DNA from: Salinigranum marinum
Lineage (GTDB): Archaea > Halobacteriota > Halobacteria > Halobacteriales > Haloferacaceae
Length of the DNA: 64,000 nucleotides
NCBI RefSeq assembly: GCF_024228675.1
Contig: NZ_CP100461.1
Span: 2,229,398 to 2,293,397, forward strand
Direction: 5' to 3'
This document shows positions 5,918-11,223 of this stretch, in pieces. Both the position numbers and the translations under genes were made by a program. The notes below the pieces were generated by a model that saw only the letters and a program-made list of their open reading frames with translations, did not search any database and had not been told where the DNA came from. Numbering within the stretch: position 1 is the stretch's first letter; every line of letters begins with the position of its first letter.

Positions 5918-6016
5918 ACGTCACGTACTCGGGCGGCAAACAAAACCTCCCCGTGAGACGGACCGACACACGCGGGTAACGCACGCTTTTTGTACGCCGC
6001 CCGACACCGCCGACCC

Positions 6017-6820
6017 ATGAGTATGCAGGTGTTCGGGCTCGTCGGCAACCCCGTCGGCCACTCGCTGTCGCCGCCGATGCACGAGGCCGCCTACGAGGCG
6101 CTCGGGATCGACGCGCGCTACGTCACGTTCGAACCCGACGAGGAGGCGATCGAGCGGGCGATCGACGGCGCGGCCGCCCTCGGGGTCAGCGGGCTGAACG
6201 TCACGATCCCGTTCAAGCGACGCGTGTTCGACTGCGTCAACCCGGACCCGCTGGCGGCGCGCATCGGCGCGGTCAACACCGTGGACTTCTCGACGACGCC
6301 CCCGAGCGGGTACAACACGGACGCCGCGGGCGTGACGCGGTCGTTCGCCCACCACGACGTCGCGCTCGGCGGCCGCGACGCCGTCGTGGTCGGCGCGGGC
6401 GGGGCAGGACGGGCGGTCGCGTTCGCCCTCGCGGACGCGGGCTGTGCGGTCCACGTCGCCAACCGGACGGTCGAACGCGCCGAGGAACTCGCCGCGGCAG
6501 TGGGTGGGGCGACCGCGGGCGGCCTCGCCTCGCTCGACCGGGTGGCCGAGGCGGACGTCGTGGTCAACGCGACGAGCGTCGGCATGGACGAGGACGCCTC
6601 GCCGGTTCCCGCCGAACACCTCCACGGCGACCTCGCGGTCCTCGACGCGGTGTACAGCCCGATCGACACCCGCCTCCTACGCGAGGCCCGCGCGGCCGGG
6701 GCGACGACGATCGACGGCGCGTGGATGCTCCTGTTCCAGGGCGTCGAAGCGTTCGAGCGGTGGACCGACCACGACGCGCCGATCGACGAGATGAACGCGG
6801 CGTTGCGGGCACGCCTGTGA
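6017..6820 (+). CDS. aroE: Shikimate dehydrogenase
   Basis: NADP-dependent shikimate dehydrogenase, which reduces 3-dehydroshikimate to shikimate in aromatic amino acid synthesis. The 267-residue protein opens with [20 protein letters not shown], the substrate-binding start with the SLSP motif. [12 protein letters not shown] carries the catalytic Lys, NTDAAG the substrate Asp, and [15 protein letters not shown] the nucleotide-binding Gly loop. The chosen ATG (MSMQVFG) matches the family start; a second in-frame ATG lies two codons later. Confidence 0.95.
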
Positions 6821-6858
6821 CGAAGACCGAACGACGGAGTCCGACTGCCGACGAAGAG

Positions 6859-6866
6859 TTTTAAAT
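6859..6866 (+). promoter_or_regulatory. TATA box for leader ORF and HHH gene
   Basis: TTTAAATA lies 30 bases before the ATG of an 18-codon ORF. At the usual archaeal distance, transcription would start at or very near that ATG, giving a leaderless transcript whose first ORF is the short leader rather than the large protein. Confidence 0.6.
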
Positions 6867-6888
6867 ACGAGGGGGCGTAGGGCGAAGC

Positions 6889-6945
6889 ATGACACGGACC
6901 TGTGAGGAACGCGCGGTGCTGGACGCCACGGGAGCTGGTGCGTGA
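6889..6945 (+). CDS. 18-residue leader ORF
   Basis: A short ORF encoding MTRTCEERAVLDATGAGA starts about 30 bases after a good TATA box, at the expected 5' end of the transcript. Its TGA shares one base with the ATG of the next gene (TGATG), an arrangement typical of translational coupling. No ORF of similar placement is needed for the other genes here. It may be a regulatory leader peptide or simply a means to start translation of the downstream gene on a leaderless mRNA. No known family applies. Confidence 0.45.
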   Translation: MTRTCEERAVLDATGAGA

Positions 6946-7904
6946 TGGGCCTGCTCGACACGATCAAGTCGCTGCTCGGGTTCGGCGGCGACGACCGTGG
7001 GAGCGGTGACGACGAGGTCGGTGTGACCGTCGAGCGGGACACGCGCGAGGCGCGCACGGAGACCGAGTCGGCGGTGAAGATGCCCGCCGACGAGGCCGAT
7101 GAACCCGACGAAGCCGACGAAGCCGGCGAGGAGGCGGGGGCCGAGAGCGAGCCCGAGCCCGCGGCGTCGGGGACGGACGCGGCCGCCTCCACCGGCTCGA
7201 TGGTCGACGAACCCGACGAGCCCGGCGAGGCCGCGGAGCCCGCCGAGGCTGTCGGGATCGGCGACGAGGGCGAGACGGAGGTCGACACCGAGCCGCCCGA
7301 GACCGACGGGTCGGCCGCTGCCGGGGGGGACGCGGCCGCCTCCACCGGCTCGATGGTCGACGAGAACGTCGCGGACGAGGCCGCAGAGCCCGCCGAAGCC
7401 GTCGACGTGGGTGCGGGTGACGAACCGGAAGGGGATGCGGACGACGAACCGGAGGCGGACGAGGCCGGGGAACCGGACGACGCGGCCGTGGACGAGCCGC
7501 ACGACGACGAGCCGGCAGGCGACGACGCGGAGGACGCGGTCGAAGTCGAGCCCGAGGACGAGGACGCCGAATCCGAATCCGAATCCGCGTCCGAGGCCGA
7601 CGCCGACGAGTCCGAGGCCGACGCCGACGGGTCCGAGGCCGACGGGTCCGAAAGCGAGACAGACGAGCCCGGTCCTGAGGCCGCCGAGGAGGCAGAGACA
7701 GCGACCGAGGCCGAAGGCGAAGGCGAAGGGGACTCGCCCGAAGTGCTGAAAGGGATCGGCCCGGCGTACGCGAGCCGGCTCGCCGACACCGGGATCGAGA
7801 CGGTCGCGGAGTTGGCGGCCGCCGACGTCGACGAAGTGGCCGACGCCATCGACGTCTCGGCGAAGCGGGTCTCACGCTGGGTCGACCGCGCCAAGGAGCA
7901 CTGA
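6945..7904 (+). CDS. Acidic protein with C-terminal helix-hairpin-helix
   Basis: A 319-residue protein with three parts. A short helix, MGLLDTIKSLLGF, could be an amphipathic or membrane-contact segment. Residues ~20-260 are very rich in Asp, Glu, Ala, Ser and Pro, and are almost certainly disordered. The last ~55 residues are a helix-hairpin-helix domain: VLKGIGPAYASRLADTGIET, then VAELAAADVDEVADAIDVSA. Such HHH domains bind DNA backbone or mediate protein contacts. An in-frame GTG precedes the chosen ATG, but the ATG overlaps the leader ORF stop. The disordered part contains an exact 35-base direct repeat. Confidence 0.75.
   Translation: MGLLDTIKSLLGFGGDDRGSGDDEVGVTVERDTREARTETESAVKMPADEADEPDEADEAGEEAGAESEPEPAASGTDAAASTGSMVDEPDEPGEAAEPAEAVGIGDEGETEVDTEPPETDGSAAAGGDAAASTGSMVDENVADEAAEPAEAVDVGAGDEPEGDADDEPEADEAGEPDDAAVDEPHDDEPAGDDAEDAVEVEPEDEDAESESESASEADADESEADADGSEADGSESETDEPGPEAAEEAETATEAEGEGEGDSPEVLKGIGPAYASRLADTGIETVAELAAADVDEVADAIDVSAKRVSRWVDRAKEH
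7176..7363 (+). repeat. Exact 35-bp direct repeat inside acidic gene
   Basis: Bases 7176-7210 and 7329-7363 are identical and sit 153 bp (51 codons) apart, in frame. Both encode DAAASTGSMVDE. In each copy a run ending AAEPAEAV follows, so the duplicated protein unit is longer than the identical DNA. It is a within-gene duplication in a disordered region. Confidence 0.85.
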
Positions 7905-8025: not shown

Positions 8026-9033
8026 ATGACAGGCGACGACGCGACGAGCGCGGCGGAGCCCGGCGGAGAGACGCCGACGGACGAGTGCGTCTACCACGTC
8101 GACGGCGCGCTCGTCCCCGCCAGCGAGGCGACAGTCTCGGTCCGTGATCGGGGCTTTATGTACGGCGACGCGGCGTTCGAGACGCTCCGGGCGTACGGCG
8201 GGCGCGTGTTCGAGTGGGAGGCCCACGCCCGCCGGCTCGCCGGAACCTGCGAGCTCCTCCAGCTCGACCACGGACTGACCGACGCGGACCTTCGTGGGCG
8301 CGTCGAGGAGACACTCGGGGCCAACGACCTCTCGGAGGCGTACGTCCGCCTGTCGGTGACGCGGGGCGTCCAGCCCGGGAAACTCACCCCCTCACCCGAC
8401 GTCGACCCGACCGTCGTCGTCGTCGTGAAGCAACTCCCGCGCGGGGGCCGCGAGAGCGACCCGGTGTGGGACGGGCCGGCGACGGTCCAAACAGTAAAAA
8501 CGCGCCGCGTCCCGGACCGCGCGATCCCGGCACGGGCGAAGACGCACAACTACCTCAACGGCATCCTCGCTCGGCTCGAACTCCGCGTCACGGGCGCGGA
8601 CGAGGCGCTCGTGCTCGATTCGGAAGGGATGGTCGCCGAGGGGGCGACGAGCAACGTCTTCTTCGTCTCCGACGAGGCGCTCTGTACGCCGTCGCTCGAC
8701 GGTCCCGTGCTCCCCGGCGTCACCCGAGATGTCGTCATCGAACTCGCCCGCGAGGAGGGGATTCCGGTGCGTGAGGATCGGTTTACCCCCGACGACGTCC
8801 GCAACGCCGCCGAGGTGTTCGTGACGAACACGACGTGGGAACTCCGCCCGGTCGCGACCGTCGACGGCATCGACTGCGGTGGCGGGCCGGTCACGGCGCT
8901 CCTGTCGCGGCTGTTCGACGAGCGGGTCGAACGAGCGCACTACAACGGCGCAGAGACGACCGACGCGACTACCGACGCCGGCGAGGACACCGGAGCCGTC
9001 GATAGCCGGTGGGACGTCGGCGACGGCTCGTAA
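8026..9033 (+). CDS. Class IV aminotransferase / aminodeoxychorismate lyase
   Basis: PLP-dependent fold-type IV enzyme of 335 residues. RDRGFMYGDAAFETLRAYGG is the family N-terminal motif, AKTHNYLNGILA carries the Schiff-base Lys, and EGATSNVFFV with TNTTWELRPVA complete the cofactor and substrate region. It may be PabC (4-amino-4-deoxychorismate to p-aminobenzoate) or a branched-chain aminotransferase; motifs do not decide. The aroE neighbourhood favours the chorismate branch, but pabA and pabB are not adjacent. ATG was preferred over an in-frame GTG six codons upstream. The last ~40 residues are an acidic tail. Confidence 0.85.
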   Translation: MTGDDATSAAEPGGETPTDECVYHVDGALVPASEATVSVRDRGFMYGDAAFETLRAYGGRVFEWEAHARRLAGTCELLQLDHGLTDADLRGRVEETLGANDLSEAYVRLSVTRGVQPGKLTPSPDVDPTVVVVVKQLPRGGRESDPVWDGPATVQTVKTRRVPDRAIPARAKTHNYLNGILARLELRVTGADEALVLDSEGMVAEGATSNVFFVSDEALCTPSLDGPVLPGVTRDVVIELAREEGIPVREDRFTPDDVRNAAEVFVTNTTWELRPVATVDGIDCGGGPVTALLSRLFDERVERAHYNGAETTDATTDAGEDTGAVDSRWDVGDGS

Positions 9034-10555: not shown

Positions 10556-10873
10556 CTACCCGCTGAGAGCGGGAGGCGAATATTCGCCGTTCACGTTCAG
10601 CGTCCCGCGATTCAAGCGCACATCTACGGGTGCGCCTCCGTCGTTTGCGTTTTGCCGACGACGGAGATACTGCAAACCGATGTTCTTCGAGGCGTTGTAG
10701 TCAGCGTGGTTTTCGTACCCACACTTCTGACAACACAACGCTCTTGCCGACCGATTGTCGCGGTGGGTAAACCCACACGTCGAACACCGCTTCGAGGTGT
10801 TCCGAGGGTCAACCTGTACAACCTCCACACCACTGTGAACCGAGTCGGTGATCGAACAAATATAGTTGGACTT
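10556..10873 (-). pseudogene. tnpB: TnpB C-terminal fragment (IS1341 type)
   Basis: About 105 residues match the end of an IS200/IS605 Tnp[21 protein letters not shown] opens the zinc finger, [20 protein letters not shown] closes it and includes the third RuvC motif, and a short variable tail follows. The first ~300 residues, with RuvC I and II, are missing; similarity fades near base 10873 and unrelated sequence continues. It is therefore inactive as a nuclease, although the tail and the following hairpin could still yield a guide-like RNA. Confidence 0.85.
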
Positions 10874-10892
10874 TACCGGGGTCCGTCGTGCG

Positions 10893-11051
10893 TCACCGAG
10901 CATGTTCGGCGACAGTGTCCACGGAGTCCACGGCGTCGAGGACGGTGACGAGCACGGTCGTGACGACCCCCAGAGAGCCGAGGCTGTCGGTCGGGTCCGA
11001 GGAACGACCGACCGTGAGACGGTTCCGGACGTCGCTCGCGTGTCGGCCCAT
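10893..11051 (-). CDS. Possible small hypothetical protein
   Basis: A 52-codon ORF starting [15 protein letters not shown] has nearly all G or C at third positions, consistent with haloarchaeal coding. A hydrophobic stretch ([20 protein letters not shown]) runs near the C-terminus. No family is recognised. It abuts the tnpB fragment, so it may be complete or a gene end altered by the insertion. Confidence 0.3.
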
Positions 11052-11223
11052 CCTCCGAACGACGCAACCGGATCGACCGAACGCGGCCAATTATTCAACT
11101 ACTACTGTCTAAATCGCACCACTGTGCGGCCAACAGAGAGGCACGGGCAGTGGATGTAGAGCGTCCCGTCGGCACTCGGCGTCCCCACCAGTGCCGTCAC
11201 CGCCGTGGTTGCACACCGGGCGG

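Follow-up and report, generated by a model that had tools for sequence, protein, structure and literature searches.

A conserved 18-codon leader ORF overlapping the start of an HHH-domain gene in Salinigranum: a candidate leaderless fore-cistron

The leader ORF and its setting

We analysed a 64,000-nucleotide stretch (the window, whose positions are used throughout) of the ~4.9-Mb genome of Salinigranum marinum, a member of the Haloferacaceae. On the forward strand, aroE (shikimate dehydrogenase, 5990-6820; TIGR00507 and NF001319 above cut-off, true start uncertain, with Met codons at 6017 and 6023) is followed by an ORF for a 319-aa acidic protein (6945-7904) and by a class IV aminotransferase gene (ilvE/pabC-like, 8026-9033; PF01063, E 3.4e-59), all co-oriented. 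The acidic protein begins with MGLLDTIKSLLGFGG, a stretch that the N-termini of its orthologues resemble, and carries a C-terminal HHH_5 domain at aa 268-318 (Pfam E 5.9e-14). The list of ORFs begins this main ORF at an in-frame GTG at 6942; we use the ATG at 6945-6947, which is the start conserved in all four genomes of the genus that were compared (G000, the Salinigranum marinum genome itself, to G003).

Between aroE and the main ORF lies an archaeal promoter (6852-6867, + strand), of the kind for which haloarchaeal BRE and TATA motifs are given in PMC4983044. A BRE-like CGAAGAG (6852-6858) directly precedes TTTTAAATA (6859-6867), invariant among the four genus genomes, within which TTTAAATA (6860-6867) forms the TATA box. 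The first base of this box is 29 bases from the ATG (6889-6891) of an 18-codon leader ORF, MTRTCEERAVLDATGAGA plus TGA (6889-6945, + strand), and 85 bases from the main ATG. The leader stop (TGA, 6943-6945) shares one base with the main start, giving a -1 overlap of the form TGATG (6943-6947). A preliminary description of this DNA had placed a TATA box about 30 bases before the ATG of a short ORF, and had described an 18-codon leader coupled by TGATG to the ORF of an acidic HHH protein; the measured spacing, the sequence and the Pfam match agree with both statements. In G000 and G003 the in-frame GTG at 6942 adjoins the main ATG and could serve as another start, overlapping the leader stop as GTGA (-4, 6942-6945) in these two of the four genomes; G001 and G002 read GTA.

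The leader ends, in all four genomes, in ACGGGRGC and a short tail. The Shine-Dalgarno (SD)-like GGGAG within it (6930-6934, + strand) is separated from the main ATG by 10 intervening bases, which is on the long side for SD spacing. The 3' end of 16S rRNA, GGATCACCTCCT, was confirmed in the Salinigranum marinum genome, and its duplex with the 15 bases ending 3 before the main ATG has an energy of -9.3 to -9.6 kcal/mol in all four genomes; these values include a bulge and were calculated otherwise than in PMC6728339, where strong SD energies are given as below -8.4. In the same genome -9.3 or less is attained by 3.1% of 6,989 ATGs and, among 314 gene-like starts, by 9.6%; the mean SD-like energy in 66 orthologues from other genera is -1.8. 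Shuffled leaders also pair with the anti-SD (mean -5.3, 39% at -6 or less), so that part of the SD energy reflects composition.

In order to see how unusual this arrangement is, we took 464 kb of the Salinigranum marinum genome (the window plus 400 kb) and scanned both strands, which contain 6,990 ATGs. ATG mini-ORFs of 5-40 codons ending on another ATG by a -1 or -4 overlap were found in 222 cases, and in only one of these does a TATA box (at least 7/8) precede the mini-ORF, at 27-33 bases from its ATG. Looser criteria were applied to 314 gene-like ORFs from a simple ORF caller, which covers 68% of the sequence and sets starts roughly; apart from the leader locus they gave a single weak candidate, in which the ORF has 50 codons. 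On these counts we rejected the idea that such leaders form a genome-wide class.

Conservation within Salinigranum

The leader is found in all four genomes of the genus with 18 codons, no indels, and equal promoter spacing and overlap. The overlap reads TGATG in G000 and G003 and TAATG in G001 and G002; thus, a substitution within the stop codon left both the stop and the overlap intact. The four peptides (MTRTCEERAVLDATGAGA, MTRTCEERAVETVTGAGV, MTRAWKEHAELDVTGADR and MTRAWKEHAERDTTGAGR) are partly alike, following MTR[T/A][C/W][E/K]E[R/H]A...TGA.., and diverge while the architecture stays constant in 4/4. Between G000 and G001, 10 of the 18 codons differ, 8 of them nonsynonymously, and the substitutions hit all codon positions (4, 4 and 6 by position). 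Since the changes fall on all three positions and mostly alter the amino acid, nothing suggests that the peptide is under selection, and its sequence does not seem to be the selected feature. The preliminary description had offered conservation in near relatives as a check on the leader: the ORF itself is kept in all four genus genomes, whereas the peptides agree only in part and the substitutions do not concentrate at third positions.

We then compared the leader with 4-fold degenerate sites of aroE. Within the two close pairs of genomes the leader evolves more slowly (7/54 versus 56/163 differences, p 0.003; 6/54 versus 48/155, p 0.004), while between the pairs it is not clearly slower (p 0.05 to 1.0). 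In a drift simulation over the four genomes, which ignores indels and takes the window's leader as its root, the share of runs in which all four ORFs survived was 0.35% with the aroE 4-fold rate and 6.3% with the leader's own slow rate. The first figure counts as evidence that the ORF is maintained; the second does not, and at that rate the intact-ORF test fails.

These figures bear on the simplest alternative, namely a short 5'-UTR of the ordinary kind, 56 bases long, with de novo initiation on the main ORF and an open frame that is incidental or barely translated. Such a reading accommodates the lack of codon-position constraint in the leader and the SD-independent initiation on 5'-UTRs that exists in Haloferax volcanii (PMC3986360), as well as the TATA spacing of 29, slightly short for a leaderless leader ATG, and it gains from the comparison covering only four species. 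However, an AUG at the expected 5' end is the typical haloarchaeal start signal (PMC4983044), and start, frame, length and overlap are all intact in 4/4 despite the 0.35% expected under drift at aroE 4-fold sites. Moreover, the SD does not act at 5'-UTR starts in Hfx. volcanii (PMC3986360), and the conserved SD-like motif would be no help to a de novo start if Salinigranum resembles that species. We consider a plain 5'-UTR unlikely.

Conservation is uneven along the leader. Any two of the genomes show 0-5 differences in its first 27 nt, against 6-14 in the last 27, and the first 9 leader bases and most bases between the TATA box and the ATG are invariant in 4/4. The spacer and the first 27 nt together (6868-6915) are strongly conserved as nucleotides, which for the spacer was unexpected. 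This pattern would be accounted for if the segment from the TATA box through about the first 27 nt of the leader were a transcription-factor site or an element of the initially transcribed region, with the ORF a passenger. A search of 6800-7010 with a 7-nt seed nevertheless found no inverted repeat of 10 nt or longer, and such an element leaves the conserved overlap and the SD-like motif at the far end unexplained, so that we regard it as improbable as the whole explanation. A DNA element in the spacer and first 27 nt may, on the other hand, coexist with translational coupling.

Orthologues in other genera and the origin of the insert

Start regions were read at 70 loci in as many of the 170 family genomes, four from Salinigranum and 66 from 25 other genera. 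These loci are among the matches listed, plus a hand-picked spread over genera, and they cover the 27 other genera except g3 and g26. Six of the 66 orthologue starts (L054, L055, L056, L066, L079 and L083) were reassigned by eye before counting. A same-strand aroE match accompanies 60 of the 70 orthologous loci and the aminotransferase 6 more; the fetched stretch contains neither at L059, L062, L075 and L080.

No comparable leader was found among the 66 orthologues from the 25 other Haloferacaceae genera. Instead, 58 of them have a TATA-like box (at least 6/8) 30-37 bases before the main ATG, with spacings of 30 (2 orthologues), 31 (43), 32 (7), 33 (5) and 37 (1), and the gene therefore looks leaderless in the relatives. 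Of the remaining eight, six show a weaker box at 31-32 bases, and L018 and L048 show none near there. The spacing of 29 in Salinigranum is thus near the spacing of the relatives' main ATG, one below its smallest value and two below its commonest, and if transcription began exactly 31 bases from the first base of the box, the 5' end would lie within the Salinigranum leader ATG. Of the TATA matches before the 223 ATG starts set by the caller in the Salinigranum marinum sequence, 4 of 15 fall at 27-34 bases, which is only a weak enrichment, and because of this weakness we relied on the orthologue spacing. A search for the leader pattern recovered it in 4/4 genus genomes and gave, in 163 other genomes, a single match, with 3 mismatches and no ATG.

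Other mini-ORFs ending near the main ATG occur in 6 of the 66 orthologues. The 28-codon ORF of L016 was rejected as a comparable leader because it begins upstream of its own TATA box, and the 3-codon ORFs of L022, L023 and L029 because they begin about 20 bases past the TATA start, ahead of the expected transcript start. The two remaining cases (L025 and L084, both of genus g20) have ATGCGATGA across the start, which makes a two-codon ORF overlapping the main ATG. These ORFs begin 27 bases after the TATA start and are unlike the 18-codon leader; they are possibly a minimal coupled start, or chance.

The apparent leaderless translation of the gene in relatives would also suit a second, downstream transcription start in Salinigranum that makes the main ORF leaderless and reduces the leader to promoter DNA. 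In all four genus genomes, however, the best TATA-like box stands 85 bases before the main ATG, and bases 23-40 before this ATG contain no TATA-like stretch. A downstream start is therefore very improbable in our estimation.

Taken together, the leaderless relatives and the position of the leader ATG, near the place of the relatives' own ATG, indicate that in the genus 56 bases have been inserted between an old leaderless promoter and the old start. The simplest history, well supported by the sequence comparison, is that the gene was ancestrally leaderless and that in the ancestor of the genus a 56-base insertion, or an equivalent rearrangement, probably came between the transcript start and the ATG. 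As for a possible source of the insert, the leader matches only itself in its own genome at up to 3 mismatches (the next best DNA match has E 0.016 over 21 bases), and the repeats near it comprise only an 11-base near-repeat.

Predicted coupling and its relation to known systems

The anatomy of the locus, its conservation in 4/4 genus genomes, the conserved SD-like motif and the restriction of such a leader to Salinigranum among the family orthologues sampled are observations. From them we infer a transcription start at the leader, translation of the leader, and coupling. We think it probable that the leader is a leaderless fore-cistron that arose by the 56-base insert and hands ribosomes to the main ORF by termination-reinitiation. 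In this mechanism the ATG at 6889 would be the first codon of the transcript, with no 5'-UTR; a ribosome would start directly on the 5'-terminal AUG, translate 18 codons and terminate at the TGA, and would then re-initiate on the overlapping main AUG (6945), a step in which base pairing between GGGAG..UGGU and the 16S rRNA 3' end would help. The fore-cistron would have to begin where the transcript begins, keep its frame open and retain both the SD-like motif and the overlap, and the peptide would be irrelevant. The grading of these proposals differs: the evolutionary event is well supported, the mechanism moderately so, and a regulatory role is only putative.

Relevant background comes from Haloferax volcanii. 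Leaderless transcripts make up 72% of its protein-coding transcripts (PMC4983044), and its overlapping gene pairs were strictly coupled in 9/9 cases tested, with a variable contribution of the SD to re-initiation (PMC6728339). The -1 overlap of the four Salinigranum genomes lies within the stop/start distance of about -8 to +6 nt considered in PMC10666635, and the SD-like motif is located, again in 4/4, towards the 3' end of the upstream ORF, which is typical of termination-reinitiation (TeRe) pairs though not essential to them.

The preliminary description went further, and proposed leaderless initiation followed by coupled re-initiation as a control device. The first part is well supported comparatively, by the spacing, the overlaps, the SD-like motif and the lack of a TATA-like box for the main ATG; a regulatory role is at most putative, and no attenuator-like RNA structure was found. 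A classical leader-peptide attenuator sensing an amino acid would fit the neighbouring genes, which belong to amino-acid or aromatic metabolism, and the sensing residue could be at codon 5, where two genomes have Cys and the other two Trp. Yet that residue is not conserved, there is no conserved run of a single sensed codon, no sign of an alternative hairpin and no intrinsic-terminator-like site (the scan being of bacterial type), and the RNA is no more stable than its shuffles (z +1.88 for 6889-6980 and -0.16 for 6889-6950). The single Rfam match, below threshold, lies in the HHH coding region and none falls at the leader. On structure and Rfam together a riboswitch or attenuator was rejected, and for the amino-acid-sensing attenuator we see hardly any chance. 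That the leader is a real regulator, the gene having switched at the root of the genus from leaderless initiation to obligatory delivery by a leaderless mini-cistron, is a tentative idea that we think rather doubtful. If the leader does regulate, the output of the HHH protein would track the efficiency of termination, recycling and re-initiation and not that of initiation.

We compared the proposed coupling with published systems. In mycobacteria, leaderless small ORFs are coupled to downstream genes and ribosome delivery has been proposed (Shell et al. 2015, PMC4633059). There a leaderless short ORF opens the transcript, as is predicted for Salinigranum, and in both its stop overlaps the downstream start. 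For one such ORF, compared between M. tuberculosis and M. smegmatis, leaderless start and coupling are conserved but the peptide is not. The mycobacterial overlap, however, is RTGA (-4) and bacterial, whereas the overlap conserved in this archaeon is -1 (TGATG or TAATG), with GTGA and its in-frame GTG in only 2/4 genomes. As to a transcript beginning at the AUG of the small ORF, as in the Shell et al. type, the observation in Salinigranum is the TATA spacing of 29, a value just below the 30-37 of the leaderless relatives. In contrast to the mycobacterial case, the leader-free state can be seen in other genera of the family. The Salinigranum leader would work like the Shell et al. type but is not a strict member of it.

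There is also a likeness with the TeRe pairs of Haloferax volcanii (Huber et al. 2019, PMC6728339; Huber et al. 2023, PMC10666635), which share a haloarchaeal host, the -1 overlap (TAATG, TGATG or TAGTG in nearly 100 Hfx pairs) and an intragenic SD. Those tests apparently concerned annotated gene pairs, whereas in Salinigranum the upstream partner has 18 codons and gives no hint that its peptide is functional. Another parallel is a synthetic cassette that works in Corynebacterium glutamicum (PMC10367133), nearly identical in layout and consisting of a leaderless promoter, a 62-bp fore-cistron (56 bp in Salinigranum), an SD and a TAATG overlap with the gene of interest; it differs in being engineered and bacterial, and its SD, AAAGGAGGACAAC, is a fuller match. 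Short ORFs ahead of normal archaeal genes are known as well, with 16 uORFs in long 5'-UTRs (150-250 nt searched) of Hfx. volcanii (PMC4983044) and, in Methanosarcina mazei, sORFs in 5'-UTRs and a leaderless 20-aa sORF on sRNA154 (PMC11456600). A stop/start overlap with the main gene is a feature of Salinigranum, and none is described for the Hfx. and M. mazei uORFs in the parts of these two papers that were available. A 2025 review (PMC12548453) describes short ORFs that deliver ribosomes as an alternative route of initiation that has been proposed.

The component parts are already known, and Salinigranum shows the same logic in an archaeon and with a -1 overlap. Titles and abstract openings, which were the scope of our literature search, announced no archaeal precedent; the haloarchaeal Ribo-seq papers (Gelsinger et al. 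2020, Hadjeras et al. 2023) are outside that scope. If the proposed mechanism is true, the locus would be a natural archaeal counterpart of the synthetic leaderless bicistronic cassette. It would also offer a clean comparative pair, with and without the leader on apparently the same promoter and gene, for following a leaderless gene into re-initiation and the effect on expression, with the before and after states surviving in living Haloferacaceae genera. Leaders of this length are not expected in routine annotation, so similar haloarchaeal cases may be missed, a prospect to be weighed against the one case given by the strict scan of 464 kb.

Some further features were observed in the window. 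The acidic middle of the HHH protein (7086-7651) contains in-frame tandem repeats of 9-, 15- and 21-bp units, the block AAASTGSMVDE occurs twice in its translation, and the length of the protein varies widely among orthologues. Downstream, on the minus strand, an ORF at 10559-11098 has a C-terminal zinc-ribbon domain of the Cas12f1-like/TnpB type (TNB; PF07282, E 2.8e-16, residues 89-140) with no Pfam match N-terminal of it, and is perhaps a truncated or frameshifted remnant of an IS200/IS605-type tnpB.
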